Assembly: GCF_008704395.1 (NCBI RefSeq)
Contig: NZ_CP023695.1
Location: forward strand, 7,254,001 to 7,318,000
Source of the DNA: Streptomyces alboniger
Lineage (GTDB): Bacteria > Actinomycetota > Actinomycetes > Streptomycetales > Streptomycetaceae
Reading direction: 5' to 3'
Length of the DNA: 64,000 nt
A model generated the notes under the pieces. The model worked only from the letters and a program-made list of their open reading frames with translations, did not search any database and was not told where the DNA came from. Shown here piece after piece: positions 12,656 through 64,000 of the stretch. The stretch's first letter is position 1. Each line of letters begins with the position of its first letter. Both the position numbers and the translations under genes were made by a program.

Positions 12656-15065
<2,410 letters not shown>

Positions 15066-18693: not shown

Positions 18694-18697
<4 letters not shown>
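18626..18697 (+). CDS. Possible 23-codon coupling ORF between hpgT and dpgA
   Basis: A GTG overlaps the hpgT stop (GTGA) with GGAAGGGG at good spacing. The frame ends in TGA that overlaps the dpgA ATG (ATGA). The basic 23-residue peptide (MTGTNALREPRRSKPRM and WGWTFR) resembles nothing I know. It may only serve to carry ribosomes from hpgT to dpgA, whose own ribosome site is less clear, or it may be chance. Confidence 0.35.
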
Positions 18698-21883
<3,186 letters not shown>

Positions 21884-22821: not shown

Positions 22822-23046
22822 ATGCCCAACCCGTTCGACGACGAAAACGGCACCTTCCTCGTTCTGGTCAACGACGAGAACCAGCATTCGCTCTGGCCCT
22901 CCTTCGCCGAAGTGCCGGCCGGTTGGAAGACCGTCTTCGGCGAAGACTCGCGGAAGGCCTGCCTCGATTACATAGAGGAGAACTGGACGGACATCCGTCC
23001 CAAGAGCCTCATCGAGGAGATGGAGAAGTACGAAGCCGCCGGCTAG
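22822..23046 (+). CDS. mbtH: MbtH-like protein, NRPS adenylation-domain partner
   Basis: This 74-residue small protein binds NRPS A domains and is often needed for their solubility and activity. The family signature is complete: NxExQxSLWP, then PxGW, then a C-terminal [15 protein letters not shown]. The ATG at 22822 gives the normal MxNPFDDExG start and has CGGAGTGG upstream; upstream in-frame codons are not family-like. It is probably the first gene of an mbtH-exporter-kinase unit. Confidence 0.95.
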
Positions 23047-26894: not shown

Positions 26895-29800
26895 ATGATG
26901 AACGGCACAGCTGGTCGCACTCTGCCCTTGTTCGATTCCCAGGAAGGAATCTGGCTGGCGCAGCGCGTGGAAGGCTCACGTCGCATGTACGGCGTCGGCC
27001 AGTACGTGCGGATAGCGGGGCCGGTCGACGCGCAGGTGTTTGACCGGGCCTTGCGGCACGTCGTCGGTGAAACCGAAATCCTCCAGGTGCGATTCGTGGA
27101 GGACGGCGACAAGGTGTCGCAGGTTCTCGCCCCCGAGCATCTCCGCTTTCCCCTTCTCGAATCCGTCGATCTCAGCGCGGAGGACGATCCTGAAACCGCC
27201 GCCGATGAATGGATGCGAGCGGAACTGAACCAGGAGACGGACCCCGACTACGCTCGCCCCTTCTCCTACGCCCTCTTCCGCCTGGCCCCCGACCGGTACA
27301 TCTGGTTCCAGCGCTACGACCACCTGCTGATGGACGTCTTCGGGTGTTCCCTGGTGGCGCGCCGCCTCGCTGACGTCTATACGGCGATGCTGAGCGGACG
27401 GTCTCCGCGACCGGCCGGACATGCCTCGCTCGGCGATCTGCTGGAACAGGAGGCCGCGTACCGCGCGTCGGAGCGGTACGCGGAGGACCGGCAGTACTGG
27501 CTCGACCGTTTCGCCGACCGGCCGGACCTCGTCAACGTTCCCGGACACGGCTCGGCCGCACGGTCCGAGGGCGAGCGCGAGGCCCTGCGGGAGACAGGGC
27601 ACCTGGCGCCCTCCGCCGTGGCGGCTCTGTGCGCGGCGGCCGACCGCGCCGAGGTGAGCTGGCCCAGGCTCGTCGTCGCGGCGTTCGCCGCCTTCACGGG
27701 CCGTATGACGGGGTCGGACGAAGCCGTCCTGAGCCTTCCGGTGTCCGGCCGCGGCCTCCCGGCCCCCGACCGTGCGAGCGACGACGCGCGACGAACCCCG
27801 TGCACGATGGCGAACCTGCTCCCCCTCCGGCTGCCCGTGGCCCCGGGCGCGACCCTCCTGGACCTGGCGCGAGACGCGGGGCGCGAGATCGGCGGCCTCC
27901 TCACCCACCAGGGTTTCCGAGGAGAACGGCTGCGCCGCGAACTCAACTGGCCGGCGGGGGACCGGTGGCACTTCGGGCCCTCCGTCAACGTCATGCCGAC
28001 GGCCGGCGAGAGCCTGTGGTTCGGCGCGCACCAGGGCGTCGTCCGCGATCTGTCGAACAGGCGCGTCGAGGACTTCGGCGTGCTGGTGAGCGGCTGGTCC
28101 GAGGGCGAGGGCATGCGGGTCACCTTCGAGGCCAACCCCGCCCTGTACGACCGCGACTGGCTCCGGGCGGCACACCGGTCGTTCCTGACGTTCCTGGAGA
28201 GCGCGGTCGGGGATCCGTCGCTGCCGGTAGGCCGCGTCGAGGCGATGGACGGTGCCGGGCGTGACGCGGTGGTGCGGGCGTGGAACGCGACCGGGCGTCC
28301 GGTCGCCGCGGACTCGGTGCCCGCTCTGCTGGCCCGTCAGCTCGGCTGGTCGATGGACGCGGTGGCGATCGTCGACGGCGATCACACGTTGACCCACGGC
28401 GAGTTGGATGCCGCCGCGGGCCGACTCGCCTCGTATCTGGCGGGTGTCGGGGTGCGGCGCGGGGACCGGGTCGCGGTGGTGATGGAGCGATCCGCGGAGC
28501 TGATCGTCGCGCTGCTCGCGGTGTGGCGGGCGGGCGCGGCGTTCGTGCCGGTGGACGTGGAGTATCCGGCGGAGCGGGTGGCGTTCCTGCTGGCCGACTC
28601 GGAACCGGCGGCGGTGGTGTGCACGGAGGCGTTCCGGGGGGCGATACCCGTGGGCGCCGGGGTGGAGCCGGTGGTCCTCGACGAGCCCCGGGTGCGGGCT
28701 GCCGTCGCCGCGTGCCGGATCGACGGCCCCGCCGTCCCGGTGGGTGGACAGGACCTGGCGTACGTGATGTACACCTCGGGATCGACGGGGGTGCCGAAAG
28801 GCGTGGCGGTGCCGCACGCGGGTGTGGCGGCGCTGGTGGCCCCCGACGCGGGCTGGCCGGTGGGCGCGGACGACGCGGTGCTGATGCACGCGCCCCACGC
28901 CTTCGACGTGTCGCTCTTCGAGGTGTGGGTGCCGCTGGTCGCGGGCGGCCGGGTCGTGATCGCCGGGCCGGGTGTGGTGGACGCGGGGCGGATCCGGGCG
29001 GCGGTCGCGGAGGGTGTGTCGGCGCTGCACGTCACGGCGGGGATGTTCCGGGTGCTCGCCGAGGAGTCACCGGAGTGTTTCGCGGGCCTCGACGAGGTGC
29101 TGACGGGTGGCGACGTGGTGCCGGCCGGGGCGGTGGCGCGGGTGCGGGAGGCGTGCCCGGAGGTGGTGGTACGGCACCTGTACGGCCCGACCGAGATCAC
29201 GTTGTGCGCGACGTGGCACGAGCTGCCCGCTGGCGCGGCGGGCGGTCAGGTGCTGCCGATCGGCCGCCCGCTCGGCAACCGTCAGGTGTATGTCCTCGAC
29301 GCGGCGCTCCGGCCCGTCCCCGCCGGTGTGGTGGGCGAGCTGTATGTGGCGGGGGAGGGCCTGGCGCGGGGGTATCAGCGGCGCCCGGGGCTGACGGCGG
29401 AGCGGTTCGTGGCGTGCCCCTTCGGCGACGGCGGGCGGATGTACCGCACCGGCGACCTGGTGCGGTGGACGCCCGAGGGCGAGTTGACGTTCACGGGGCG
29501 CGCGGACGAGCAGGTGAAGGTCCGGGGTTTCCGTGTGGAGCCCGGCGAGGTCGAGCTGGTCCTCGCCGGGCACGCGTCGGTGGCCCAGGCGGTCGTGGTG
29601 GCCCGGCAGGACAGCGGCCCCGGCGGCGACAAGCGGCTGATCGGCTACGTCGTACCCGACGGCGGACATGACGCGGACCCCCGGCTGCTGCGGGAGCACG
29701 TGGCCAGGGCGCTCCCCGAGTACATGGTCCCGGCCGCCGTGCTGCTCCTCGACGAGCTGCCCCTCACCGTGAACGGCAAGCTCGACCGGGCCGCCCTGCC

Positions 29801-30075
29801 GTCTCCCGGCTTCCTGGGCGCGGGCGGCGGCCGTGGCCCCGCGACCCCCGTGGAGGACGTGCTGTGCGGGCTGTTCGGCGAGGTCCTCGGCCTGGGGCGG
29901 GTCGACGCCGACGTGTCGTTCTTCGAGCTGGGCGGGGACTCGCTGCTGGGAATGCGGCTGGTGGCACGGCTGCGTGCGGTCCTCGACGTGGAGCTGGGCA
30001 TCGGCGCACTGTTCGGCGCGCCGAGCGTGGCAGAGCTTGCCCGGCTGGTGGATGAGGAAGGGAATGGGCTCGCGG
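26895..30075 (+). other. Module 1 (C1-A1-T1), predicted Hpg
   Basis: C1 has a degenerate active-site motif (DHLLMDV). The A1 code read by eye against PheA positions is D-V-F-H-L-G-L-L-C-K, one residue from the Hpg code DIFHLGLLCK. T1 has LGGDSLL, the form usual before a C domain. No epimerase, so the residue stays L, in line with the L-donor type of C2. Confidence 0.75.
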
Positions 30076-33000
30076 GGGAGGGGCGGGTCGCGTTGTGTCG
30101 GCGGTCGCGGCCGGATGTGGTGCCGTTGTCGTTCGCGCAGCAGCGGATGTGGTTCCTGAACCGTATGGCGGACTCGGTGCCGGGCGCGTCCGCCGCCTAC
30201 AACTTGCCGCTGACCCTGCGCATTTCAGGCGCACTGGATGTGGCTGCCCTGGAAGCGGCACTCGGTGACGTGGCGGACCGGCACGAGAGCCTGCGCACCG
30301 TCTACCCCGACACCGCCGCCATCCCCTACCAGCGGGTGCTCACGAGCGCGCGCCCCTCCTTGACCATCACGCCGATCGGTGAGGAGCGGCTGACGGAGGT
30401 GCTCGCCCAGCAGCTGAGTGAGGGCTTCGATCTGCGGGTGGATGTGCCGTGGCGGGTGTGGTTGTTGGTGGTGGGTCCGGGTGAGTTCGTGTTGTCGGTG
30501 GTGGCACATCACGTGGCTGTCGATGGCTGGTCGATGGGGGTGTTGGCGCGGGATTTGGAGGTGGCGTATGCGGCTCGGTGTGAGGGGGGTGTGCCTGGGT
30601 GGGGGCCGTTGCCGGTGCAGTACGTGGATTACGCGTTGTGGCAGCGGGAGGTTCTGGGTGGGCTGGATGATCCGGCGAGTGTGATCAGTGGTCAGTTGGC
30701 TTTTTGGCGGGATGTGTTGGAGGGCGTGCCGCAGGAGTTGGTGTTGCCGGTGGATCGTGTGCGGCCTGTGGTGCCGTCGTTTGAGGGGCGTTTGGTGCCG
30801 GTGGCGGCGGGTGCAAGGACGCATGCGCGGTTGGTGGAGGTGGCGGGGCGGGGCCGGGCGACGATGTTCATGGTGGTGCATGCGGCGGTGGGTGTGCTGC
30901 TGGCGCGGTTGGGGGCGGGGGAGGACGTTCCGTTGGGGACGCCGGTGGCGGGGCGTGGTGATGCGGCGTTGGAGGAGCTGGCGGGGTTCTTCGTGAACAC
31001 GCTGGTGCTGCGTACGGATCTGAGCGGTGATCCGACCTTCGCCGAGCTGGTGGAGCGGGTGCGGGCCACCGACCTGGCGGCCTATGCCCACCAGGACGTC
31101 CCCTTCGAACGCCTCGTGGAAGAACTGAACCCCTCTCGTTCCGTCTCCCGCAATCCACTGTTCCAGGTGATGCTGGCCCTGCCGAACCTCCCAGACCCCG
31201 AGTGGAAGCTGCGGGGCACCCGGGTGTGTCCGCTGCCGATGGTCGCGCCGGCCGCGCGGTTCGACCTCGCGGTGACGCTCGCCGAGCGGCGCGACGAGCG
31301 GGGCGCACCGGCCGGCCTGGACGGTGACGTACTGCTGGCCGCTGACCTGTTCGACGAGGACACGGCCTGGAAGCTGGCCGACCGCCTGGTGCGCGTCCTG
31401 GAGCAGGTGGCCGCCGACCCGGACATCCGGCTCAGTGAGGTGGACGTCCTCACGGCGGACGAGCGAGCACAGGTGGTGGAGCGCTGGAACGATACGGCGG
31501 TCGCGGCCCCGGACGCACTGGTGCCGGAACGGTTCCAGCTGCGGGCGGGCCTCTCGCCGGACGTGATGGCGGTGCGGTGTGGCCAGGACGTGGTGTCGTA
31601 CCGGGAGTTGGAGGCGCGGGCGAACCAACTGGCCCGCTACTTGACGGGGCGAGGCGTGGGCCGTGAGGCCAGGGTGGGTCTGTGTCTGCCGCGCGGTGTC
31701 GACATGGTCGTCGCCGAGCTGGCGGTGTGGAAGGCGGGCGGCGCGTTCGTGCCGCTGGACCCGGAGTATCCGGCGGACCGGCTCGCGTTCATGGTGGCCG
31801 ACAGCGGTGCACGGGTGGTCCTGGGCACGGCCGCCACCCTGGCCGACGTACCGGTGGCGGCGAAGGTCGTACTCCTCGACGAGGCGCGGACCGTGGCGGA
31901 GCTGGCGGCGGAACCCGCCGCCCCCCTGGCCACGACCGTCCTGCCCGGCCAACTCGCCTACGTCATCTACACATCAGGCTCGACGGGCCGCCCCAAGGGA
32001 GTGGCCGTGGCGCACGACGGAGTGGCGAACCTCGCGGCGGCCATGCGGCCGGTGCTCGGCGTGTCCGAGGGCGTGGCCGTGCTCCAGTTCGCGTCGTTCA
32101 GCTTCGACGCGGCGGTGCTGGACGTGGCGGTGACGCTGGCCGCGGGCGGCACGCTCGCCATCGCGTCGAGCCGGGAACGTGCCGAGCCCGCGGCCCTGGC
32201 CCGGATGATCGACGCCGCCGGGGTGAGTACGGCAAGTGTGGTGCCGTCCCTGTTGAGCGTGCTGGATCCGGCGGACGTGCCCGGCGTACGGAACTGGGTT
32301 CTCGGCGCGGAGCTGCTGACCGCGGGCCTGGCGAGCCGGTGGACACCACAGGCGCGGGTCTGGAACACGTACGGACCCACCGAGGCGACCGTGATGGCCA
32401 CGGTCGGGCCGGTGGACGCCGGAATCGGGGCGGGCGACGAGCCGCCGCCGATCGGACGACCGCTGGCCAACATGCGGACGTACGTACTCGACGCCTCCCT
32501 GCACCCCGTGCCGCCGGGCGTGGTGGGTGAGGTGTACATCGCGGGGCCCGGCGTGGCGCGCGGCTATGTGGGGCGGCCCGGGCTGACGGCGGAGCGGTTC
32601 GTGGCCTGCCCCTTCGCCGCGGCGGACGGGATCGGCGCGGACGGGCCCGGTGCGGGTGGGCGCATGTACCGGACCGGGGACCTGGCCCGCTGGACGGCCG
32701 ACGGGCAGCTGCTGTTCGCCGGACGCGCGGACGACCAGGTGAAGGTCCGTGGTTTCCGGGTGGAGCTGGGCGAGGTCGAGGCGGCGCTGGCCGCGCAGCC
32801 CGGGGTCCGGCAGGCCGTGGCCGTGGTGCGCGAGGACCGGCCGGGCGATCGCCGCCTGGTCGCCTATCTCGTACCGGAGGAGCGGCACGACATCGACCCC
32901 CGCCAGATCCGGGACCAAGTGGCCTCGCGACTGCCGGAGTTCATGGTCCCGGCTGCCCTGCTCGTCGTCGACGTGCTGCCGCTCACGGTGAACGGAAAGC

Positions 33001-36000
33001 TGGACCGGGCCGCGTTGCCGGCACCGGACTTCACTCCCCGGGCCTCGGGCCGGGAACCGCGTACGCAGACCGAGGAGATCCTGTGCGGCCTGTTCGGAGA
33101 GGTGCTCGGCCTCGAATGGGTCGGGGCGGAGGACGGGTTCTTCGAGCTGGGCGGGGATTCGCTGCTGGCGATGCGGCTGATCTCCCGGGTGCGGGCGGTG
33201 CTGGAGATCGAGGTGGGGATCGGCGAACTGTTCGGGGCGCCGACCGTGGCGGGTCTGGCCCGCCTCGTGGACGCGGGCGGGAGTGCGCCCGCGGGGGAGG
33301 GGCGGGTCGCGTTGTGTCGGCGGTCGCGGCCGGATGTGGTGCCGTTGTCGTTCGCGCAGCAGCGGATGTGGTTCCTGAACCGCATGGAGGAGTCCGTCCC
33401 GGGCGCGTCCGCCGCGTACAACTTGCCGCTGACCCTGCGCATTTCAGGCGCACTGGATGTGGCTGCCCTGGAGGCGGCGCTCGGTGACGTGGCGGACCGG
33501 CACGAGAGCCTGCGCACCGTCTTCCCCGACCTCGACGGTGTCCCGCACCAGCGGATTCTGCGGGGGAGGGAGGGGCATCCGCCTTTCACCATCGTGCAGT
33601 CCGACGAGCATCTGGTGGCCGAGGCCCTCGCGGAGGAGTTGGGCGGCGGCTTCGATCTGCGGGTGGATGTGCCGTGGCGGGTGTGGTTGTTGGTGGTGGG
33701 TCCGGGTGAGTTCGTGTTGTCGGTGGTGGCACATCATGTGGCCGTTGACGGCTGGTCGATGGGGGTGTTGGCGCGGGATTTGGAGGTGGCGTATGCGGCT
33801 CGGTGTGAGGGGGGTGTGCCTGGGTGGGGGCCGTTGCCGGTGCAGTACGTGGATTACGCGTTGTGGCAGCGGGAGGTTCTGGGTGGGCTGGATGATCCGG
33901 CGAGTGTGATCAGTGGTCAGTTGGCTTTTTGGCGGGATGTGTTGGAGGGCGTGCCGCAGGAGTTGGTGTTGCCGGTGGATCGTGTGCGGCCTGTGGTGCC
34001 GTCGTTTGAGGGGCGTTTGGTGCCGGTGGCGGCGGGTGCAAGGACGCATGCGCGGTTGGTGGAGGTGGCGGGGCGGGGCCGGGCGACGATGTTCATGGTG
34101 GTGCATGCGGCGGTGGGTGTGCTGCTGGCGCGGTTGGGGGCGGGGGAGGACGTTCCGTTGGGGACGCCGGTGGCGGGGCGTGGTGATGCGGCGTTGGAGG
34201 AGCTGGCGGGGTTCTTCGTGAACACGCTGGTGCTGCGTACGGATCTGAGCGGTGATCCGACCTTCGCCGAGCTGCTGGAGCGGGTGCGGGCCACCGACCT
34301 GGCGGCCTATGCCCACCAGGACGTCCCCTTCGAACGCCTCGTCGAGGAACTCAACCCGTCCAGGTCCCTCTCCCGCACCCCCCTGTTCCAAGTGATGCTG
34401 GCGCTCCAGAACGTGCCCGAGGCCACCTGGGACCTGCCCGGCGCGCGAGTGAGCCCGGCACCGCCGCCGCCCCGCCTCGCGGCCCGGTTCGACCTGGCGG
34501 TGTCCATGGTCGAACGGCGCGACACGTCCGGCGCCCCGGCCGGCCTCGACGGCGAAATCCTCTACGCCACCGACTTGTTCGACGAGGACACGGCCCGGAA
34601 GCTGGCCGACCGCCTGGTGCGCGTCCTGGAGCAGGTGGCCGCTGATCCGGATATCCGGCTCAGTGAGGTGGACGTCCTCACGGCGGACGAGCGAGCACAG
34701 GTGGTGGAGCGCTGGAACGACACGGCCGTCCCGGTGCCCCCCGCGACGGTCGTCGACCTCTTCGAGGAACGGGCGGCACGGTCCCCGCACGCGGTGGCGG
34801 TCGAATCCGGCGAGCACGGAGAGAACGCCCTGACCTACCGGGAGTTGGCGGCCGAAGCGGCGCGGCTCGCGCGGTACCTGACCGGCGCGGGCGTCGGGCC
34901 GGAGTGCCGGGTGGCGGTCGTGGCCGAGCGGTCGGTGGAGCTGGTGGTGGCGCTCGTCGCGGTCGCGATGGCCGGCGGGGTGTTCGTACCCGTGGACCCG
35001 GAGTACCCGGCGGACCGGGTAACGCACCTGCTGGAGGACTCCGATCCGGCGGTGGTGCTGTGCACGAAGGCGACACGGGGTGCGATCCCGGCGGAAGCTG
35101 CAATCCCCGCGGAATCCGCGGTCCCGACGGAAACTGCGGTCCCGGCGGAGACCGCGCGCCACTCGAACACGGCGGAGCGCACAGGCTCCGCGCCCCGGAT
35201 CGTGGTCCTGGACGACCCGACGGTCGTCCAGGATGTGGCGTCGTACCCGGCCACCCCGTTGCGGCCCACCGAGCGCCAGGCGTCCCTGGCCGGGGACAAT
35301 GCCGCGTACGTGATCTACACCTCGGGCTCGACGGGCACGCCGAAGGGTGTCGCCGTCTCCCACCACGGCCTGCGTAACGTCGTCGAGGACAACCTTCGGC
35401 GGTACGCGCTCGACGAGGACAGCCGCGTCCTGCAACTCGTCTCACCCAGCTTCGACGTCTCCATGGCCGACATCTGGCCGACGCTGTGCGCCGGCGCGCG
35501 GCTCGTCCTCGCGCCCTCGAAGCTGGACGCGTCCGGCGACGAACTGACCCGCCTGATGCGGGCGCGGCGCGTCACCCACCTGGCGACGACCCCCACGTAC
35601 CTGCTGCACATGGAGGCGGAGGACGTACCGGAGCTGCGGCTGCTGATCATCGGCGGTGAGCCGATGCCGCCCGAGGCACGCCGCCGCTGGCAGCGGGGCC
35701 GCGCCATGTACAACCAGTACGGCGTCACCGAGGCGACGATCATCTCCACGGTGAGCGCGGTCCAGCGCGAGCGCGACGGCACGGCGCCGATCGGCGGCCC
35801 CATCGCCAACACCCGGGTGTACGCGCTGGACACGTCCCTGCGGCCGGTGCCCGTGGGCGTGCCGGGCGAGCTGTACGTCGCCGGCGCCGGCCTCGCACGC
35901 GGCTACCTGGGCCGGTCCGGCCTCTCGGCGGAACGGTTCGTCGCTAGCCCGTTCGGGGCGGGGGAGCGGATGTACCGCACCGGCGACGTGGTGCGGTGGA

Positions 36001-38174
36001 CCAGCGAGGGCGAACTGGTCTTCGCGGGGCGTGCCGACGACCAGATGAAGGTCCGCGGCCACCGGATCGAGCCCGGCGAGATCGAGTCCGCCCTGTCCGG
36101 CTGCCCGGGGGTTCGCGAGGCCGTGGTGACGATCCGCGAGGACCGCCCGGGCGAGCGCCGACTGATCGGTTATGTGGCCGCTGACCCGCGGGCGGTGGAC
36201 GGGCGGACCGTACGCGCGCACGCCGCGAACCTGCTGCCGGACCACATGGTGCCGACGGCGGTCCTGGTCCTGGACACCCTGCCGCTGACCGCCAACGGCA
36301 AACTGGACCGGGCCGCGCTCCCCGCGCCCGACTTCGCCGAGCGCGTCCTCGGCCGGGAGCCGCGCACGGAGACCGAGCGTGTCCTGTGCGATCTGTTCGC
36401 CGAGATGCTGGGGCTCGAACGGGTCGGCGCCGACGACGGCTTCTTCGAGCTGGGCGGCGACTCGATCAGCTCCCTGCAACTGGTGTCCCGGGCGCGCCGG
36501 GCGGGACTCGTCATGACGCCCCGGCACGTGTTCGAGGAGAAGACGCCCGAGCGCCTCGCCGCCGTCGTCGAGGCGGTGGGCGCGGCGGAACGCGCCGTCA
36601 CCGACATCGGCGTCGGAGAGGTCCCCTGGACACCGGTGATGCGGGCGTTCGGCGGGCGCGCGGCCGGCGCCCGCTTCGCCCAGTGGATGACCGTCGGCGC
36701 ACCCGCCGGGCTCGGCCTCGACGTGCTGGCGGCCGGTCTCGGAGCCGTGCTGGACGCGCACGACATGCTGCGGGCGCGGACCGTTCCCGGTGAGCCGAAG
36801 CTGATCGTCGGCGAGCGGGGATCGGTGGACGCCGGAAGCCTCGTCGCGCGTGTGGACGCGATGGGCGTGGGAGAACCCGTACCCGAGGCGGACACACCGC
36901 AGGCGGGCGTACCCGAGGCGGACGCACCCGTGGGCGCCGACATGCTGATGGAGGACCCCGGCACGCTGGACGAGGTGGCGGGACGGGCGGCCCACGAGGC
37001 GGCACGCCGCCTCGACCCGGCGCACGGTGTCATGGCGCAGGCCGTGTGGGTGGACGCCGGGCCCGGACGAACGGGCCGCCTCGTGCTGGTCGTCCACCAC
37101 TTGGTGGTGGACGGAGTGTCCTGGCGGGTGCTGCTCCCGGACCTCAGGGCGGCGTGCGAGGCGGCGGCCGCCGGGCGCGAACCGGCGCTCGACCCGGTCG
37201 GTACGTCGTTCCGGCGCTGGGCGCACCTGCTGACCGCGCAGGCCCGCGACGACCGGCGGATCGCCGAGCTGGCCGACTGGACCGCGTTGCTCGGAGACCC
37301 TCAACCGCCGCTGGGCAAACGTGCGTTGGATCCGGGGCAGGACACCGCGATGACCCTGCGCCGACGCTCGTGGACCCTGCCTTCGGAGCAGGCGGCCACC
37401 CTGGTGGGCCGCACTCCGGGAGCCTTCCACTGCGGCGTGCGCGAGGTGCTCCTCGCGACCTTGGCTGGAGCGGTCGCGCACTGGCGGCCCGGGACCGCCG
37501 ACGGGCTCCTGGTGGACGTCGAGGGTCACGGCCGCGAGCCGCTGGAGGGCGCGGACCTGTCCCGTACCGTCGGCTGGTTCACCAGCGTGCACCCGGTCCG
37601 CCTGGCGGTGACCGGCGCCGACCTGGACGACGCTATGGCCGGCGGGCCCTCGGCGGGTACGTTGGTGAAGGCCGTGAAGGAGCAGGTCCGGGCGGTGCCC
37701 GGCGACGGCCTCGGCTACGAACTGCTCCGCAGGCTCAACCCCGACACGGGCCCGGTCCTCGCGGCCGCGCCGACCGCGCAGATCGGCTTCAACTACCTCG
37801 GCCGGTTCGCCGCCGGGGCGGCGGGCACCGTCGACGACTGGCAGCAGGCCGGGGCCGCGGCGATCGGCGGCTCCACCGAACCGGACCTGCCGGCGATGCA
37901 CGTGGCCGAGGGCCTCGCGGTAGTCACGGACACCCCGGAAGGGCCCGAACTGACCGTGACGCTCAGCTGGCCGCGACGGCTCCTGGACGAGACCGACGTG
38001 GAGCGCCTCGGCCGGGCCTGGGTAGCGATGCTCGACGGTCTCGCCGCGCACACCGACGAGCCGACGGCGGGCGGTCACACCCCTTCCGACTTCCACCTCC
38101 TCGACCTCGAACAGGACGAGGTCGACCAGTTCGAAGCGATAGCAGCCGACCTTGAGGAGGGCCTGTCCCGGTGA
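26895..38174 (+). CDS. NRPS subunit 1: C-A-T, C-A-T, C-A-T-E (modules 1-3)
   Basis: This 3759-residue multimodular synthetase starts the peptide. The first C domain (1-450) resembles starter/EntF-like C domains, but its HHxxxDG core reads DHLLMDV (Asp142-His143, Val148). Carrier-domain serines that take phosphopantetheine are Ser1016, Ser2089 and Ser3190. C2 and C3 are of the L-donor type (SFAQQRMWF; His-His at 1205-1206 and 2280-2281). The only epimerase is at the end (HHLVVDG at 3401-3402 onward). Each A domain has the YTSGSTG core and the C-terminal NGKLDRAAL lysine. ATG 26895 sits very close to GAGGGGG; ATG 26898 is equally possible. The stop overlaps the next gene by 4 bp. No loading acyl-ligase or ACP is seen, so the N-cap is unknown. 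Confidence 0.93.
30076..33300 (+). other. Module 2 (C2-A2-T2), substrate unassigned
   Basis: C2 is of the L-donor type with an intact HHVAVDG. The A2 code is D-A-L-S-V-G-T-V-M-K, which I cannot match to a known substrate. The same class recurs in modules 8 and 9. No epimerase. Because the dpg genes must feed some module and none shows the glycopeptide Dpg code DPYHGGTLCK, this class is a candidate for Dpg by elimination only. Confidence 0.6.
30424..31120 (+). repeat. C2 half of a near-identical condensation-domain duplication
   Basis: About 700 bp match 33649-34345 at a constant offset of 3225 bp with no gaps and only a handful of base changes that I can see. Both copies have a distinct codon style (many GTG/GGT/TTG codons) unlike the C-ending codons around them. 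Confidence 0.9.
33649..34345 (+). repeat. C3 half of a near-identical condensation-domain duplication
   Basis: Partner of 30424-31120. It covers the end of the N-terminal lobe, the HHVAVDG motif and most of the C-terminal lobe of the C domain. Confidence 0.9.
35082..35153 (+). repeat. Four in-frame 18-bp tandem repeats in A3
   Basis: Units read [24 protein letters not shown]. They lie in a surface loop of the A3 domain just before the core A3 motif and make that loop about 25 residues longer than in the sister domains. Confidence 0.92.
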
Positions 38175-42820: not shown

Positions 42821-42871
42821 CCCGACTTCCGTGACCGACCCGGCATCCCGCCGCTGTGAGGAGACAGAACG

Positions 42872-53400: not shown

Positions 53401-56400
53401 CCACTACCCGCTGACGTTCGTCGTCTCGCCCGGGCAGCGCATGCACGGCGACTTCGTCTTCCGGCCGGACGTGTGCGACCGGGCCCGCGCCGAGGACATG
53501 GTCGCCTCGCTGGTGCGGATCCTGGAGCAGCTGGTCGCGGACCCGGCGGCGCCCGTGGGACGGGTGGACGTCGTGGCCGCCACCGCACGCGACCTCGTCG
53601 TACGGCAGTGGAACCGGACGCGGGATCCGGCGGCCGGTGCGGCGCCGCTGCCCGAGCTGACCGCCCGACAGGCGGAGCGCACGCCCGACGCGGTGGCACT
53701 GATCGAGGGCGAACAGTCGGTGTCGTACCGCGAGTTGGTGGAGGAGGCCGGACGGCTCGCCCGGTATCTGGCGCGGGCCGGGGTCGGTCCGGAGCGCCGG
53801 GTGGCCGTCGTCGGGGAGCGGTCGGCGACCACGGTGCGCTCGCTCCTCGCCGTGTCGATGGCCGGAGGTGTCTTCCTTCCGGTGGACGCGGACTATCCGG
53901 CGGAGCGCATCGCGTACGTACTGACCGACGCCGCGCCCGCTGTGGTGGTGTGCACCGAGCGTTCGCGGGGCGCGGTGCCCGCCGGATTCACCGGCCGCGT
54001 CGTGGTGACCGACGACCCGCGCGTTGCGGGCGAGGTGCGGCGCTGCGCGGGCGGCCCGCTGCGGGACGAGGAGCGAACGGCGCCCCTGCGGCCCTCCCAC
54101 GCCGCCTACGTCATCTACACATCCGGGTCGACGGGGACACCCAAGGGCGTCGTCGTCACCCACGCGGGCCTCGGCAACCTCGCGCGGGCGCAGATCGACC
54201 GCTTCGGGGTCCGGGCGGACTCACGCGTGCTCCAGTTCGCGTCACTGAGCTTCGACGCGGCGGTCTCCGAACTCTGTATGGCGTTCCTGTCGGGCGGGTC
54301 ACTGGTCGTGGCCGCCCCGGACGAACTGCCGCCACGGGTGTCCCTGGACGAGGCCGTGCGCCGGGCGCGGGCGAGCCACGTCACCGTGCCGCCGAGCGTC
54401 CTCGCGGCCGAGGAGCGGCTGCCCCCGGCGCTGGAGACCGTGGTCGTGGCGGGCGAGGCGTGCCCGCCCGGGCTTGTCGACCGATGGGCGCGGGGGCGGC
54501 GGATGGTGAACGCGTACGGCCCCACCGAGACGACGGTCTGCGCGGCCATGAGCGAGCCGCTGGCACCGGGCCGCGACGTCGTGCCCATGGGGCAACCGAT
54601 GGCGAACGCGCAGGTGTTCGTCCTCGACGAGTTCCTGCTGCCTGCGCCGCCCGGCGTGCCCGGTGAGCTGTACGTCGCGGGCGCCGGGCTCGCCCGGGGC
54701 TATCTGGGGCGGGCGGGTCTTTCGGCGCAGAGGTTCGTCGCCTGCCCGTTCGCGGCGGGCGGGCGGATGTACCGCACCGGCGACGTGGGGCGGTGGACGC
54801 GCGAGGGCGAACTGCTCTTCACGGGCCGCGCCGACGACCAGCTCAAGGTCCGCGGACACCGGATCGAGCCCGGCGAGGTCGAAACGGTCCTGACCTCGCA
54901 CCCGCACGTCGTACAGGCCGTCGTCGTCGCGCGCCGGGACCACACCGACGGCAACCGCCTCGTCGCGTACGTCGTCGCGGACCCCGCCCGCCACAGCGGC
55001 GACGCGACGACCGCCGAGGGGGCCACCGAACTGCCCCCGTACGTCGCCGACCTGCCCGCGTACGTACGGGAGCGACTGCCCGAGTACATGGTGCCGACGG
55101 TGTTCGTCCCCCTGGACCGGCTGCCGCTGAACGTCAACGGCAAGGTGGACCGGGCCGCGCTGCCCGCACCCGACCTCGCCGAGCGCGTCACGGACGGCCA
55201 GGCGCGCAACGGGACCGAGAGGCTCCTGTGCGACCTGTTCGCCGAGGTTCTCGGCCTGGAGCGGGTCGGGGTCGGCGACAGTTTCTTCGAGCTGGGCGGT
55301 GACTCGATCATGTCGATGCAGCTGGCGTCCCGTGCGCGCCGGGCGGGGCTCCTGCTGACGTCACGGCAGGTCTTCGAGGAGAAGACCCCCGAGCGCCTCG
55401 CGGAGGTCGCGGAGGCCGCCGAACCCGACACCGCCGTCGACGACACCGGCGTCGGCGAGGTGCCCTGGACGCCGGTGATGCGCGCACTGGGCGAACGGGC
55501 CGCACGCCCCGGCTTCGCACAGTGGACGGTCCTCGGCGCACCCGCCGGGCTGGGAACGGACACGCTGACGGCGGGCCTCGGCGCCCTGCTCGACACGCAC
55601 GACATGCTGCGGGCGCGCACGGTCCCCGGCGAGCCGAAGCTGATCGTCGGCGAGCGGGGGTCGGTGGACGCCGCCGGCCTGGTCGCACGCGTGGACGCGA
55701 CGGGCGCGCGGGACGACGCCGCCCTGGACGAGATCGCGGGCCGGGCGGCGCGCGAGGCCGTGGAGCGCCTCGACCCCGCCGCCGGGATCCTCGTCCAGGC
55801 CGTCTGGGCCGACGCGGGGCAAGACCGCACGGGCCGCGTCGTCCTGGTGGTCCACCACCTGGTGGTGGACGGGGTCTCCTGGCGGGTCCTCGTGCCGGAT
55901 CTGCGGGCGGCCTGCGAGGCGGCCGCCGCCGGAGGCGAACCGGCACTCGATCCGGTCGGCACGTCCTTCCGGCGCTGGGCCGAGCTGCTCGCCGCACAGG
56001 CGTCCGGCGAGCGGCGGACCGCCGAGCTGGACGACTGGCTCGCCCTGCTGGGCAAGCCGCAACCCCCGCTCGGACAAAGCGACGTGGACCCGGCCCTGGA
56101 CACCGTACGCACTCTTCTGCACCGGACCTGGACGCTGCCGCCCGAGCAGGCGGCCACCCTGGTGGGCAAGGCCCCGGCGGCCTTCCACTGCGGAGTCGAC
56201 GACATCCTCCTCGCGGCGCTGGCGGGCGCGGTCGGTCACTGGCGGCCGGAGACCGCCGCGGGACTCCTCGTCGACGTCGAAGGGCACGGCCGCGAGCCTC
56301 TGGAGGGCGCGGATCCGCTGCGCACGGTCGGCTGGTTCACCAGCGTGCGCCCGGTCCGCCTCGCGGTGGACACTGCTCACTTGGACGACGCTATGGCGGG

Positions 56401-56941
56401 CGGCAGGGCTGCCGGTAGCTTGGTGAAGGCCGTCAAGGAACAGGCGCGGGCGGTGCCCGGAGACGGCCTCGGTCATGAGCTGCTGCGTCATCTCAACCCC
56501 GTGACGGGCCCGGTCCTCAAGGCCGCGCCCGCCGCGCAGATCGGCTTCAACTACCTGGGCCGGTTCGCGGCGGGCGGCGGTGCGGACGGCGGCACCGGCA
56601 CGGGTCCGGTCGGGCCGTGGCACCTGGCCGGTGAGAGCGCGATCGGCGGTTCCGTCGACCTGGACATGCCCGCCACGCATGTCGTGGACGCGGGCGCGGT
56701 GGTACGGGACACCGCCGACGGGCCCGAGCTGACGATCACGCTGAGCTGGGCGAGCCGGCTGCTGGAGGAGGCCGACGCGCAACGGCTCGGCACCGCCTGG
56801 CTGAGGATGCTCGACGGCCTCGCCGGTCACACGACCGACCCCACGGCGGGCGGGCACACCCCGTCCGACTTCCGCCTCCTCGACCTCGCACAACACCAGA
56901 TCGACGAACTCGAAGCCGGATTCACCGGCGAGCAGTCATAG
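42872..56941 (+). CDS. NRPS subunit 3: three C-A-T-E modules (modules 5-7)
   Basis: This 4689-residue synthetase adds three residues, each epimerised. All three C domains are of the D-donor type (WPLSPLQ...LLFH/MLFH) with His-His at 144-145, 1677-1678 and 3273-3274. Carrier serines are Ser998, Ser2579 and Ser4145, all in LGGDSI. Epimerase His-His pairs are at 1184-1185, 2758-2759 and 4328-4329; the second epimerase reads HHLVADV instead of HHxxxDG. The ATG follows GAGGAGA and a leader nearly identical to that of subunit 4 (GTGAGGAGACAG). The N-terminus ([13 protein letters not shown]) is an acceptor communication domain, and the C-terminus ([16 protein letters not shown]) a donor. Confidence 0.93.
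44110..45878 (+). repeat. A5-T5 half of a 1.77-kb mosaic duplication with A4-T4
   Basis: Partner of 39445-41213. The E domains behind them also share a block (about 41350-41570 with 46027-46247, offset 4677), so the duplicated unit probably included T and part of E. Confidence 0.88.
50285..50347 (+). repeat. Three in-frame 21-bp tandem repeats in A6
   Basis: Units read [21 protein letters not shown], within an extra loop of about 30 residues between the VAYVV strand and the final LPEYMVP segment of the A6 domain. Confidence 0.9.
51860..51907 (+). repeat. Two 24-bp tandem repeats near the end of E6
   Basis: Two copies of an eight-residue unit (TTATTDPA) extend the loop after NYLGRF in the epimerase domain. 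Confidence 0.9.
52199..52228 (+). repeat. Two 15-bp tandem repeats in the E6-C7 linker
   Basis: Two copies of LTRNA plus a partial third lengthen the linker just before the module 7 condensation domain. Confidence 0.9.
52271..56941 (+). other. Module 7 (C7-A7-T7-E7), predicted D-Tyr/Phe
   Basis: The A7 code is D-A-S-T-V-A-A-V-C-K, which I associate with Tyr. E7 has intact HHLVVDG and VEGHGRE. A6 and A7 are clearly sister domains ([19 protein letters not shown]). Confidence 0.7.
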
Positions 56942-56958
56942 CAGGACCGCAGCACCTT

Positions 56959-57043
56959 CAGGCACCGGACGCCGACAGGCACCGGACGTTGTGAGCCGTC
57001 AGGCACCAGCCGTTGTGCCGTCAGGCACCAGCCGTTGTGAGGA
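56959..57043. repeat. Four imperfect tandem repeats before NRPS subunit 4
   Basis: Units of 17, 24, 22 and 22 bp each begin CAGGCACC. The last two are nearly identical (CAGGCACCAGCCGTTGTG plus four bases), and the final unit runs into the ribosome site GAGGAGA. GGCAC/GTGCC within the third unit could form a short stem. They fill most of the 111-bp gap between subunits 3 and 4. Confidence 0.88.
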
Positions 57044-57052
57044 GACAGCACG

Positions 57053-60000
57053 ATGAGCCGACCCCGACCCCGATCCCTCGTCGAGGACGTGTGGCCCCTG
57101 TCGCCGTTGCAGGAGGGGATGCTCTTCCACGCCTCCTTCGACGAGCAGGGCCCGGACGTCTACACCGTGCAGTCGGCGGTGGACGTCAACGGTCCGCTGG
57201 ACACGGATCGGCTGCGGGCGTCGTGGGAGGCCCTGCTGGGCCGGCATGCCGCGCTGCGGGCCTGCTTCCGGCCGGTCACCGGCGCGCACATGGTGCAGGT
57301 CATCCCGCGCGAGGTCGTGCTGCCCTGGCAGGAGGCGGACGTCCGAGGGCTCGCGCAGGCCGAGGCCCTGGCGGAGATCGACCGGCTCGCGGCACGGCAG
57401 CGGGCGGAGCGCTTCGACCTCGCGGTCCCGCCGCTGCTGCGCCTCCTGCTGATCAGGCTCGATGACAACCGGCACCGCCTGGTCATGACGCTGCATCACA
57501 TCCTCCTCGACGGCTGGTCGATGCCGATCCTGCTGGGCGAACTGCATGCGACGTACGCGGCCGGGGGCGCCACCTCCGCGCTGAAGCGGATCGCGCCCTA
57601 CGGCGAATACGTGGCATGGCTGGGCCGCCAGGACAAGGAGGCGGCGTCGGCCGCGTGGCGGGCGGAACTGTCCGGAATCGAAGGACCGACGCTCGTCGCG
57701 CCGGCGGACCCCGGCCGCGCCCCCGTGCTGCCCGAGCAGGTCCACGCCTCGGCGCCCGCCGAACTCACCGCCGCCCTAACCGAGTTGGCACGAGGCGAGG
57801 GCCTGACGCTGAACACGGTCGTGCAGGGCGCCTGGGCGCTGGTCCTGGCACGCCTCGCGGGACGCACGGACGTGGTGTTCGGCGCTACCGTCGCAGGACG
57901 GCCCGCCGAGCTGCCGGGCGTGGAGTCCATGGTCGGCCTCTTCATCAACACCCTGCCGGTGCGTGTGCCGCTCGACGGCGGGCAGCAGGTCGCCCAGATG
58001 CTGGCGCGGCTCCAGGAGCGCCAGTCCGCGCTGATCCCGCACCAGCACGTGGGGCTCGCGGAGGTCCAGAAGCTCGCGGGCGCCGCGGCCGTCTTCGACA
58101 CCCTCGTGCTGTACGAGAACTACCCGCTGCCGCCCGCCGCTCCCGCACCCGGCCCCGACACCATCTCCCTCAGCCCGGCGGGGGCCTCGCGCGACGCCTC
58201 GCACTATCCGCTGACGCTCGTCGCGGTCCCGGGCGGCGACCGGATGCGCTTCAAGCTGGACTACCGGCCGGACCTGTTCGACCGCGGCACCGCGGAGTCG
58301 ATCGTCCAGCGGTTCCTACGGGTCCTGGAGCGGATGGCGTCCGACCCCTCCGCGCGGATCGGCGACATCGACGTCCTCGACGGGGCCGAGCGGTCACGGG
58401 TGGTCGAGAGGTGGAACGCCACGGCGCGACCGGTGCTCACGAGCACCGTGGTGGCCGCGTTCGAGGAGCGGGCGGGCCTTTCGCCGGACGTGGTGGCGGT
58501 GCGGTGTGGCCAGGACGTGGTGTCGTACGGGGAGTTGGAGGCGCGTGCGAACCGGCTGGCCCGCTCTTTGACGGGTCGAGGCGTGGGCCGTGAGGCCAGG
58601 GTGGGTCTGTGTCTGCCGCGCGGTGTCGACATGGTCGTCGCCGAGCTGGCGGTGTGGAAGGCGGGCGGCGCGTTCGTGCCGCTGGACCCGGAGTATCCGC
58701 CGGACCGGCTCGCGTTCATGGTGGCCGACAGCGGCGCCCGGATGGTGCTCTGCACCGGTGAGCCGCCGGCCGTACGCCGCGCCGACGAGCCGCCGGCCGG
58801 CGACGTACGCGTCGTGCGACTCGACGACCCGGAGACCGCGCGGGCGATCGCCGCGGAGTCCGCCGAACCGCCCGGCGTGACCCTCCTGCCGGACCAGCTC
58901 GCCTACGTCATCTACACCTCCGGGTCGACCGGACGCCCGAAAGGCGTGGCCCTCGCCCACCACGGCGTGGCGAACCTCGCGGAGGCGATGCGCCCGGCGC
59001 TCGACCTCGACGCGGGCACGGTCATGTTGCAGTTCGCGTCGTTCGGCTTCGACGGATCCGTCCTCGACGTCGCGGTCACCCTGGCCGCCGGGGCCACCCT
59101 GGCCATCGCGTCGGCCGAGGAGCGCACCGAACCGGACGCGCTGACCGGGATGATCCGCGAGACGGGCGTCGGGTCGGCCAGCGTCGTGCCCTCGGTGCTG
59201 CGCGTCCTGGACCCGGCCGACGTGCCCGGCGTACGCAACTGGGTGCTCGGCGGCGAACTGCTGACCGCCGACCTCGCCGGCCGGTGGAGCGCGCGGGCAC
59301 GCGTGTGGAACACGTACGGCCCCACCGAGGCGACCGTGATGGCCACGGTCGGCCCGGTCGACGCCGGGATCACCGCGGGCGACGAACCACCGCCGATCGG
59401 GCGCCCGCTCGCCAACACGCGCACGTACGTGCTCGACGGGTTCCTGCGGCCGGTGCCGCCCGGCGTGACCGGCGAGCTGTACGTCGCGGGGCCCGGCCTG
59501 GCACGGGGCTACGCGGGGCGGCCCGAGCTGACGGCGGAACGTTTCGTGGCCTGCCCCTTCGGCGCGGGCGGGCGGATGTACCGGACCGGTGACCTGGCCC
59601 GCTGGACGGCGGACGGCCGGCTGGTGTTCGCCGGGCGGGCGGACGAGCAGGTGAAACTGCGCGGATTCCGCGTGGAGCCCGGCGAGATAGAGGCGGTGCT
59701 CGCCGGACACGCGGCGGTGGGCCAGGTGGCGGTGCTCGCCCGCGAGGACCTGCCGGGCGACAAACGTCTCGTCGCGTACGTCGTGCCCGCCACCGACACC
59801 GCGAGCGAGGCCGAGGGCGTCGACGGCACGATCGACCCCGAAGCGCTGCGCACCTTCGCCGGAGCGCGTCTGCCCGACTACATGGTTCCCGCGACCGTCG
59901 TCGTCCTCGACGCGCTGCCGCTCACCGTGAACGGCAAGCTCGACCGGGCCGCCCTGCCCGCGCCCGAACACGCCGAACAGGGCGGCCGGGATCCGCGGAC

Positions 60001-61690
60001 GCCCGTCGAAGCGGTCCTGTGCGCCGTGTTCGCCGAGGCGCTCGGCGTCGAACGGGTGGGCGCCGACGACTCGTTCTTCGCCCTCGGCGGCGACTCGATC
60101 CTGTCGATGATGCTGGTGTCCGGGGCCCGCCGCGCGGGCCTCGCGATCACCGCACGCCAGGTGTTCGAGCACCGCACCCCGGCCGCCCTCGCGCTGGTGG
60201 CCGTACCGGTGGACGGCGGGGCCGCCGGCGGCGGCGACCCCGGGACCGGCGAGGTGCCCCTGACCCCCGTGATGCACGAACTGCTCGACCGCGTCGGCGC
60301 CGACCAGGTGGGCCGGGTCGTCCAGTCCGCCGTCGTCGAGGCCCCGGCCGGGCTGAGCCACGAGACGCTGGCCGACGCGGTGCGCGCCGTGGTGGACCAC
60401 CACGACATCCTGCGCGCCCGCCTCCGGACGGAACCGGAACCGCGGCTCGTGGTGTCAGGACCGGGCACCGCACCGGCCGGATCGTGGGTACGCCGGATCG
60501 ACGCGGAATCCGTGGAGGCCGACGACCTGCCGCGGGCCATCGCCGAGGAGAGCCGGGCGGCGGTGGCGCGGCTCGATCCGCGCTCCGGTGTCATGGTGCA
60601 GGTGGTCTGGTTCGACCTCGGGCCCGAGACCGCCGGGCGGCTGCTGCTGGTCGTCGACCACCTCGTGATGGACACGGTGTCGTGGCGGATCCTGCTGCCC
60701 GACCTGGAGCAGGCCTGCGCGGCCCTCGCCGCAGGCCGCAAGCCGGAACTGGAGCCGGTCCCCACGTCGTTCCGGCACTGGGCGCGCGCCCTGGCCGAGC
60801 AGGCGCGGAGCGCGGACCGGATCGCGGAACTGCCGCGGTGGGCGGAGTTGCTCCAGGGCCCCGACCCGCTGCTGACCGCACTGCCCGCGGACCCGGCACG
60901 CGACGTGGCCGCCACGGTGCGGCGGATCTCGGTGACCGTACCGGCCGAGGTCACCTCGGCCCTGCTGACCGGCGTGCCCGCCGCCTACCACGCGGGTGTC
61001 GACGACGTCCTCCTGACCGGACTCGCCGCCGCGGTCGCGCGGTGGCGCGACGGCGCCGACCCCGAGGGCGGCTTCCTGGTGGACGTGGAGGGCCACGGCC
61101 GGGTGGAGCTGTCCGACGGCATGGACCTGTCGCGGACGGTCGGCTGGTTCACCGGCACACACCCCGTACGGCTCGACGCGGGCGCCGCCGACCTCGACGA
61201 GATCCTGTCCGGTGGCCCGTCGGCGGGCGACGCCGTGAAGCGCGTCAAGGAACAACTGCGCGCGGCGCCCGGCGACGGCCTCGGCTACGGCCTGCTGCGC
61301 CACCTCAACGACGAGACCGCGCGGGAACTCGCCGCCCTGCCCGCCGCCCGCATCGGGTTCACCTACCTAGGCCGCGTCCCCGGCGCCCCCGCGGACGAGA
61401 GCCCGGACACGGCGCCCGATCCCGCAGGCGGACAGCTCCCCGTCGCCCACCCCCTGGAGGTCTCCGGCGTCGTCCACGACCTGCCCGGGGGGCCGCGCCT
61501 CACCCTGAGCCTCGCCTGCCCGCAGCACCTCCTCGACGAGCAGGCGGCGCGCGCCCTGGTCGAGGGCTGGGCGGCGATGCTCACCGGCCTGGCCGCCCAC
61601 GCCGCGGACCCCGCGGCGGGCGGCCACACCCCCTCGGACTTCCCGCTGGTCACACTGACGCGGACCCAGGTCGAGAAGCTGGAGGAGGCG
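57053..61690 (+). other. Module 8 (C8-A8-T8-E8), substrate unassigned
   Basis: The A8 code is D-G-L-S-V-G-T-V-M-K, differing from modules 2 and 9 only at position 236. The first part of A8 is nearly identical at the DNA level to that of A2 (about 31550-31790 and 58490-58730). E8 keeps the second, catalytic His but has lost the first His and the Gly of HHxxxDG. Confidence 0.6.
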
Positions 61691-64000
61691 GCGCCGGGCC
61701 TCGCGGACATCTGGCCGCTCTCCCCGCTGCAAGAGGGCCTGCTGTTCCACTCGATGTTCGCGGACGAGGGCCCCGACGTGTACGTGGAGCAGATGATCGT
61801 AGGCCTCGAAGGGCCGCTGGACACCGACGTCCTCAGGGCGTCCTGGCAGTCGGTCCTCGACCGGCACGCGAGCCTGCGCGTCGGCTTCCGGCAGGTCGCG
61901 GGGTCCGGGCAGGCCGTCCAGATCGTCATGCCCCGGGTCGCCCTGCCGTGGCGCGAGGAGGACCTGTCGGAACTCGGCGAGGACGCGGCCAGGGAGGAGT
62001 CGGACCGGATCGGGAACGAAGAACGGGACAAGGGCTTCGACCTGGAGAAGCCGCCCCTGCTGAAGGTGCTGCTCGTCAAGACGGGCCACGAGCGGTACCG
62101 CATGATGGTGACGCTCCATCACATCGTGCTCGACGGCTGGTCGTTGCCGGTGCTGCGGCGCGAGCTGTGGGCCTGCTACGAAGCGGGGGGCAGCGCCGAC
62201 GGCCTGCCCCCGGTGACGCCGTACTCGCAGTTCCTGGCCTGGCTCGGCCGCCAGGACAGGGAAGCGGCCCAGGAAGCGTGGGCGGCGGAGCTGTCCGGCG
62301 CCGAGGAGCCGACGCTGGTCGTGCCCGTGACCCCGGGCGCGACGGTCGAGGCGTCCGGCGTGTCGGGCGAGGTCTTCACCGTCGCCGACGAGGCGCTGAA
62401 CACCGCGCTCGGCGAGCTGACGCGCGCCCACGACGTGACGCTGAACACCGTCGTCCAGGCCGCGTGGGCGCTGGTCATCGGCCAGCTGGCGGGCCGCAAG
62501 GACGTGGTGTTCGGTGCGTCCGTCGCGGGCCGGCCCGCCGAACTGCCGGGCATGGAGGACATGCTGGGCCTGTTCATCAACACCGTGCCCGTCCGCGTGG
62601 CCTGCGAGCCCGCGCGGACCGTCGCCGAGGTCCTCACCGACGTACAGGCCAGGCAGTCGGTACTGATGGACCATCAGTACCTGAGCCTGGGGGACATCCA
62701 GCGGATCGCGGGACCGGGAGCGACCTTCGACTCCCTCATGGCGTTCGAGAGCTTCCCCACCGGCATGGACGCTCCCGCACAGCCCGGTGAGGGCCCCCGG
62801 GAGGCCGCACCGGCCGGCCTGAGTTTCACCGAGGCCGACATGCGCGAGTCGATCAACTACCCGCTCGGCCTCGTCGTGGACCCGCTCGGCGGGCTGCGGC
62901 TGCGGCTCACCTACCGGACGGACGTCTTCGAGGAACCGGCCGCCCGCGCCCTGCTCGACCGCCTCGTGCGGGCCCTGCGGCAGATGGCGGCGGACCCCGG
63001 CCTCACCGTGGGCCGGATCAAGCTCTCGGACACCGCCGAGCGGTCGCTGGTGACCGAGCGGTGGAACGCTCCGGCGGTGGCGGTCCCGGACGCGCTGGTG
63101 CCGGAACTGTTCCAGCTGCGCGCGGGCCTCTCGCCGGACGCGGTGGCGGCGCGGTGCGGCCAGGACGCGGTGTCGTACGGCGAGTTGGAGGTGCGGGCGA
63201 ACCAACTGGCCCGCTTCCTGGCGGGTCGAGGCATCGGCCGTGAGACCACGGTGGGCCTGTGTCTGCCGCGCGGGATCGACATGGTCGTCGCCGAGCTGGC
63301 GGTGTGGAAGGCGGGCGGCGCGTTCGTGCCGCTGGACCCGGAGTACCCGGCGGACCGGCTGGACCATGTGATCGCCGACAGCGGCGCGCGGGTGGTGCTC
63401 GGGTCCGGCGGCTCCCTGGACGGCCTGTCGATGGGAGCGGCCCGGGCGGTACTGCTCGACCAGGTGGAGACCGGCCGGGCGATCGCGGCGGAGCCCGCCG
63501 AGCCGCTCGACGTGACGGTGTCACCCGGTCAACTGGCCTACGTGATCTACACATCGGGGTCGACGGGCACCCCCAAGGGTGTCGCCGTGGCGCATGGCGG
63601 TGTGGCGAACCTGGCCGAGACGATGCGGCCCGCGCTGGGTGTCGCCGAGGGTGTGGCGGTCCTCCAGTTCGCGTCGTTCAGCTTCGACGCGGCGGTCCTC
63701 GACGTGGCCGTCACCCTCGCGGGCGGCGGCACGCTGGTCGTCGCCTCGGGGCAGGAGCGGGCCGAGCCGGGAGCGCTGGCCGAGATGATCCAGGCCTCGG
63801 GCGTCACCACGGCGAGCGTCGTGCCGTCGCTGCTGAACCTGCTGGACCCCGACGCGGTCCCCGGCGTGGGCAACTGGGTCCTCGGCGCGGAGCTGCTGAC
63901 CGCCGACCTGGCCGGCCGCTGGACCCCGCAGGCGCGGGTCTGGAACACCTACGGCCCCACCGAGGCGACCGTGATGGCCACCGCGGGCCCCGTGAACGAG
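57053..64000 (+). CDS. NRPS subunit 4, partial: C-A-T-E, C-A... (modules 8-9)
   Basis: An open frame of 2316 codons runs to the window edge without a stop. C8 (HHILLDG, 148-149) and C9 (HHIVLDG, 1689-1690) are of the D-donor type. T8 carries Ser1015 in LGGDSI. E8 has a diverged core, DHLVMDT (Asp1202-His1203, Thr1208), with VEGHGRV, and its sequence stands apart from E3-E7. A9 is cut just after its YGPTEATV motif. The N-terminus ([15 protein letters not shown]) is almost the same as that of subunit 3. The ATG follows GAGGAGA. Termination module, thioesterase and any tailoring genes lie beyond the edge. Confidence 0.93.
61691..64000 (+). other. Module 9 (C9-A9, cut by window edge), substrate unassigned
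   Basis: C9 is complete and of the D-donor type, as expected after E8. The A9 code up to the edge is D-A-L-S-V-G-T-V-M, the same as module 2. Whether an epimerase follows cannot be seen. Confidence 0.6.

Follow-up and report, generated by a model that had tools for sequence, protein, structure and literature searches.

Corbomycin, produced by Streptomyces sp. WAC01529 (genome accession NZ_CP029617.1), is a cross-linked nonapeptide antibiotic of the type V glycopeptides that binds peptidoglycan and thereby blocks autolysins, and its scaffold is Hpg1-Dpg2-Trp3-Hpg4-Hpg5-Tyr6-Tyr7-Dpg8-Dpg9 (Hpg, 4-hydroxyphenylglycine; Dpg, 3,5-dihydroxyphenylglycine; Trp, tryptophan; Tyr, tyrosine) (PMC7567792). 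The type is defined there by a Trp linked to the central Hpg, and the nonapeptide GP6738 also belongs to it (PMC7567792). Complestatin and kistamicin are Trp-containing type V peptides whose synthetases likewise carry an X domain (PMC6565677, PMC1894796), but they have seven residues, and kistamicin is described with two Oxy genes and a module 4 that lacks an epimerisation (E) domain (PMC6565677). Here, we analysed a window of 64,000 nucleotides from the Streptomyces alboniger genome, which is a single contig of 7.96 Mb (NZ_CP023695.1, positions 7,254,001 to 7,318,000), together with the adjoining DNA. The window almost certainly holds most of a gene cluster of the corbomycin type (type V glycopeptides), an orthologue of the crb cluster of WAC01529. 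A first-pass annotation had described a nonribosomal peptide synthetase (NRPS) with six consecutive epimerising modules, and had suggested, without taking novelty as proven, that no Hpg/Dpg peptide is known with this configuration. The latter claim fails, since the module order is that of corbomycin (PMC7567792), i.e., of an already characterised cluster, and the locus is collinear with that of WAC01529. The six-E assembly line is thus real but not new, and the comparisons made in that annotation (glycopeptides, feglymycin, ramoplanin and enduracidin) had included no named type V peptide.

When named genomes were scanned with an X-domain alignment, the first locus among the matches listed was that of Streptomyces sp. 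WAC 01529, with an X domain 89% identical, and its contig is NZ_CP029617.1, the same accession as that given for the corbomycin producer in PMC7567792. A stretch of 75 kb of WAC01529 around this X-domain locus, with the presumed crb genes at 7.760-7.820 Mb, was used for comparison. All 19 in-frame cluster genes (12656-72182) were matched there with their order kept and at 84-96% protein identity, and the DNA aligned in two blocks, 38.0 kb at 87% (12668-50258) and 27.4 kb at 89% (50321-77499). The two clusters are alike in gene order, module order, six E domains, an X-relic adenylation-thioesterase end, three P450s and a ferredoxin. With the cluster and both flanks taken together, 26 of 35 genes were matched; the remaining nine lie in the outer flanks, mostly past the fetched WAC01529 stretch, or correspond to the gene pair at 6782-9451. 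We also considered whether WAC01529 carries another glycopeptide-like cluster besides the one for corbomycin, and ruled this out, because the 48 matches listed for that genome comprise one X domain at 89% and 47 others at no more than 48%, and because the corbomycin scaffold fits every position.

The assembly line is encoded by four consecutive NRPS genes, N1-N4, whose reading frames are open and without internal stops. Their domain layout, read from sequence motifs, is as follows (C, condensation; A, adenylation; T, thiolation; TE, thioesterase; LCL and DCL, C domains of the L-donor and D-donor types; identities are to WAC01529):

26895..38174, plus strand, N1, 3759 amino acids (aa), 86% identical: starter-like C-A1(Hpg)-T-C2(LCL)-A2(Dpg)-T-C3(LCL)-A3(Trp)-T-E3
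38171..42820, plus strand, N2, 1549 aa, 85% identical: C4(DCL)-A4(Hpg)-T-E4
42872..56941, plus strand, N3, 4689 aa, 84% identical: C5-A5(Hpg)-T-E5-C6-A6(Tyr)-T-E6-C7-A7(Tyr)-T-E7, every C of the DCL type
57053..68302, plus strand, N4, 3749 aa, 87% identical: C8-A8(Dpg)-T-E8-C9-A9(Dpg)-T9-X-relic A-TE

The part of N4 inside the window (57053..64000) covers C8-A8-T-E8-C9 and the start of A9. The first-pass annotation had let the line run on as "X and onward"; module 9 does exist, but the final 4.3 kb of N4, which lie right of the window, hold beyond it only the X domain, the relic A domain and the TE, so that an extension past module 9 could be ruled out. With nine modules in total, the predicted product should be a nine-residue peptide.

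The nine-position codes of the A domains, read by alignment with WAC01529, are DVFHLGLLC (A1), DALSVGTVM (A2), DVAAIGQII (A3), DIFHLGLLC (A4 and A5), DASTIAAVC (A6), DASTVAAVC (A7), DGLSVGTVM (A8) and DALSVGTVM (A9). Seven of the nine are identical in WAC01529, and A4 and A7 each differ at one position. The published order Hpg-Dpg-Trp-Hpg-Hpg-Tyr-Tyr-Dpg-Dpg is compatible with the codes at every position. The earlier picture of a self-consistent Hpg/Dpg assembly line with Hpg at positions 1, 4 and 5 and aromatic residues at 6 and 7 is supported.

Six E domains close modules 3-8, each with the xHxxxD and EGHGR motifs, and all group with E domains in the tree described below:

36621..38054, plus strand, E3
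41354..42670, plus strand, E4
46031..47371, plus strand, E5
50762..52111, plus strand, E6
55460..56791, plus strand, E7
60254..61582, plus strand, E8

WAC01529 has the same six (a single pattern picks up five of them, and E7 reads HHMVVDGVSW there), and their recurrence in an orthologous cluster argues that the run is not due to chance. C2 and C3 open with SFAQQRM and C4-C9 with PLSPLQxG, openings that we take to mark the LCL and DCL types, respectively. A FastTree phylogeny was built from 40 domains of the C, E and X types, of which the window and WAC01529 supplied 16 each and other relatives eight. In it, C4-C9 fell into one DCL-type clade (support 1.0) that includes one Amycolatopsis C domain, and C2 and C3 formed a separate LCL-type clade (0.99). 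The X domains formed a clade of their own (0.93), which groups with C2/C3 (1.0); C-type and E domains were split with a support of 0.79. The six epimerising modules and the two donor types proposed in the first-pass annotation were therefore borne out. The suggestion made there of a new peptide whose D/L pattern has no precedent has practically no chance of being correct: its six consecutive E domains are real, but the corbomycin producer has the same six and nearly the same A codes, and both the scaffold and the collinearity refute it.

The domains predict the configuration L-L-D-D-D-D-D-D-x. As a domain-based prediction, the D residues at positions 3-8 stand, but the rule that an E domain followed by a DCL domain gives a D residue has documented exceptions: PMC1894796 describes glycopeptide synthetases in which the module 4 and module 7 C domains cluster with the DCL type yet use L donors, and in which certain E domains are thought to be inactive; the D pattern thus stays a prediction. 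These exceptions count among several points that weigh against assigning the cluster to corbomycin. The others concern the codes: A4 (C to A) and A7 (V to I) differ between the strains, and the Dpg (2, 8 and 9) and Trp (3) codes were assigned through the corbomycin match and are not independent of it. The same applies to the Trp that defines type V, and its linkage to Hpg is itself predicted. The Hpg (1, 4 and 5) and Tyr (6 and 7) assignments follow general substrate-code tables.

A close corbomycin analogue, with one changed residue, another stereochemistry or a different cross-link, would be in keeping with the protein identity of 84-96% rather than full identity, with the single code differences in A4 and A7, and with small motif departures in E5, E6 and E8, WAC01529 having the more usual letters at E5 and E6. 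We consider it unlikely: the code changes are single and conservative, the first-histidine change of E8 is common to WAC01529, and the three P450s are 94-96% identical between the strains.

Inspection of the sequence right of the window, which had been proposed as a check, showed that N4 continues through module 9, the X domain, a decayed A domain and the TE, and is followed by P450 and ferredoxin genes (window numbering throughout; bit scores for P450s refer to PDB chains):

64853-66187, plus strand, X domain, between T9 and the relic A/TE, with HRVATDD, i.e., HRxxxDD
66188-67522 (L009:10188-11522), plus strand, relic A domain, 445 residues, Pfam AMP-binding 117 bits
68351-69556, P450 1, best Oxy-named chain 3OO3 (Oxy protein), 340 bits
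69599-70711, P450 2, best Oxy-named chain 5HH3 (OxyA), 316 bits; top chain 7TTB, 320 bits, labelled only P450
70723-71928, P450 3, best Oxy-named chain 4TX3 (OxyB), 512 bits; top chain 5EX6, 516 bits, labelled only P450
71925-72182, ferredoxin, after the three P450s

We take 7TTB and 5EX6 to be P450s from glycopeptide clusters. The best PDB match of the X domain by sequence is 4TX2 (430 bits), and the next is 6M7L (385 bits), presumably the kistamicin X domain. The entry 4TX3, which has the same sequence as 4TX2, is the teicoplanin X-OxyB complex (PMC5238595). With an X domain between the last T domain and the TE, and with P450s that are of the Oxy type by sequence and predicted to cross-link, the gene set is that of a glycopeptide-type cross-linked peptide. 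Because the X domain, the three Oxy-type P450s and the ferredoxin follow module 9, a nine-residue cross-linked glycopeptide-type peptide would be expected. The X domain, the Oxy-type P450s and the Hpg/Dpg genes are also what a classical type I-IV glycopeptide (dalbaheptide) cluster would have, but such clusters have seven modules and the pattern D-D-L-D-D-L-L, neither of which was found. Here there are nine modules, of which 3-8 have E domains, and the genes annotated at 12656-72182 include neither a glycosyltransferase nor a halogenase; a dalbaheptide is thus vanishingly improbable. The lack of glycosylation genes in this stretch is as expected of type V.

Combined with the above analysis, the following route could be proposed for the corbomycin-type cluster. 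Hpg and Dpg would be made by the genes at 12656-21883, and the four NRPS proteins would assemble Hpg1-Dpg2-Trp3-Hpg4-Hpg5-Tyr6-Tyr7-Dpg8-Dpg9, with modules 3-8 epimerising their residues. The X domain after module 9 would recruit the Oxy P450s from the three genes to cross-link the aromatic side chains, and the TE would then release the peptide. The strain would presumably produce this compound, which would act by binding peptidoglycan and blocking autolysins, as reported for corbomycin. The identification removes a false claim of novelty and adds one more strain with a corbomycin cluster, which may be of use for production and for structure-activity work on antibiotics that block autolysins; it should be of little surprise to specialists.

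Related systems were found in other genomes. The X-domain search of 295 same-genus genomes gave five matches at E <= 1e-180, counting that of the window itself and one that coincides with the WAC01529 position. A protein search, of which the best 120 of 1584 matches passing the threshold were considered, contained among these 16 N4-like proteins of 3.2-3.8 kaa (thousand aa), with 68-95% identity over residues 2600-3749. The motif order was the same in these 16 wherever the patterns matched, and two of them (P0011 and P0044) begin within the first module. Five Streptomyces relatives of N4 (L024, L027, P0017, P0033 and P0093) have at least two consecutive modules of one A-domain type before the X domain, joined by an LCL-type C domain; this A-domain type is NTYGPTE (the Dpg type here) in P0017, P0033 and P0093, and DAL..TVI in L024 and L027. 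Five Amycolatopsis loci (L022, L023, L025, L026 and L029), presumed to be of the vancomycin/teicoplanin type, share an X domain 49-53% identical and Oxy-like P450s, but their X-TE linker is 115-124 aa long and retains no more than a piece of the relic A domain, in contrast to 460 aa here. In Streptomyces jumonjinensis (L016), this linker is 205 aa and the middle of the relic is gone. Blast pieces of N3 and N4 are interleaved upstream of the X domain in the same locus, which suggests that the synthetase there is rearranged or misassembled.

The relic A domain that separates X from TE is of nearly full length and conserved in the corbomycin family, but it lacks the A3 loop and the small A subdomain, its A5 motif reads SVHGTAE, and no T domain precedes the TE. 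We compared 45 tails, not de-duplicated, and the TE junction was found in 40 of them (L018, L024, L027, P0002 and P0024 were not measured). The X-TE linker was long (381-481 aa) in 30, shorter (115-205 aa) in nine and 47 aa in one. The 18 functional A domains found in the window and WAC01529 were used to build a profile, which matched 39 of the 40 linkers at 30-216 bits, whereas 200 shuffles of each gave no more than 8.5 bits; the exception was the 47 aa linker of Sinosporangium siamense (L030). Across five orthologues (10 pairs), the median ratios of nonsynonymous to synonymous substitution rates (dN/dS) were 0.73, 0.57 and 0.42 for parts 1, 2 and 3 of the relic, and C9, A9, X and TE had 0.22, 0.26, 0.39 and 0.46, respectively. 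Compared with C9 and A9 ahead of it, the relic thus changes more quickly, but its reading frame is intact in all five. A special constraint on its last part, suggested by a first pairwise dN/dS, was dropped, given 0.42 against 0.46 for TE and 0.39 for X in five sequences and 10 pairs.

Such remnants are a known feature. In 2007, PMC1894796 described A-domain remnants behind the X domain for complestatin, "and only there", and took them as a sign that a module had been lost, and PMC8949500 counts an extension of 120 residues close to the TE as a piece of that ancestral module; the gradient seen here only adds detail. A tentative reading, which we hold to be possible yet on balance doubtful, is that X represents the C domain of a terminal module that has been lost, which would be number ten in this line and number eight in heptapeptide lines. 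The corbomycin family would then have preserved one of the fullest fossils of that module, a dead but almost complete A domain joined to the TE, with a structural task such as spacing or P450 docking, and vancomycin-type lines would keep a shard of about 120 residues and a similar TE junction. A relic that stays in frame with dN/dS below 1 in Streptomyces would suggest such a task. The lost-module idea is already in print (PMC1894796, PMC8949500), and only the family gradient and the retained function would be new if it holds. The conserved relic offers a usable intermediate for studying the origin of the X domain.

Left of the NRPS genes, the cluster encodes the following proteins (percentages are identities in WAC01529):

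12656..13783, minus strand, FMN (flavin mononucleotide)-dependent oxidase, HmO-like by its presumed place in the Hpg pathway, Pfam FMN_dh 417 bits, 92%
13764..14876, minus strand, 4-hydroxymandelate synthase/HPPD family, putatively HmaS-like (Hpg pathway), NCBIfam 4HPPD over cut-off, 89%
15063..16208, plus strand, prephenate dehydrogenase (aromatic precursor supply), Pfam PDH_N/PDH_C, 93%
16329..18629, plus strand, fused FMN-dependent oxidase and class I/II aminotransferase, putatively of HmO-HpgT type, Pfam FMN_dh and Aminotran_1_2, 89%
18676..19827, plus strand, DpgA type III polyketide synthase, NCBIfam DpgA equivalog 655 bits (cut-off 425)
19821..20543, plus strand, DpgB enoyl-CoA hydratase, NCBIfam DpgB equivalog 328 bits (cut-off 140), start codon maybe slightly downstream
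20540..21883, plus strand, DpgC dioxygenase, NCBIfam DpgC equivalog 741 bits (cut-off 530)
21896..22705, plus strand, alpha/beta hydrolase with no assigned role, Pfam Abhydrolase, 85%
22822..23046, plus strand, MbtH-like protein, Pfam MbtH 105 bits, 95%
23094..25235, plus strand, ABC exporter (membrane and ATPase), Pfam ABC_membrane and ABC_tran, 96% over 652/713 residues, start at 23094 likely inside the open reading frame 22665-25235
25413..26726, plus strand, sensor histidine kinase, distantly VanS-like, Pfam HisKA/HATPase_c, NCBIfam VanS-O 156 bits, far under the cut-off of 720

There are two FMN oxidases, one fused to the aminotransferase (16329-18629) and the other separate (12656-13783). 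The alpha/beta hydrolase stands directly after dpgC, where dpgD would be expected. Searched with the DpgD model, the whole genome yielded 20 matches, all under the cut-off (best 180 of 400 bits), and another enoyl-CoA hydratase may therefore carry out the DpgD step. At the start of N1, a starter-like C domain (26919-28259) lies ahead of A1 with a degenerate active site (DHLLMDVFG); no acyl donor for it is evident among the annotated genes, and the same degenerate domain is present in WAC01529 (80% identical).

A UvrA-like protein adjoins the cluster (10212-12659; 94% in WAC01529), with 815 aa against 924-943 profile positions; it scores over the cut-off of one UvrA profile and under that of another, and it might belong to the cluster as a self-protection gene. 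Farther out, and outside the cluster, about 3.5 kb of the window that are absent from the same place in WAC01529 hold two genes (6782-9451), which encode a Sdh_cyt-like membrane subunit (under the Pfam cut-off) and a fumarate reductase/succinate dehydrogenase flavoprotein.

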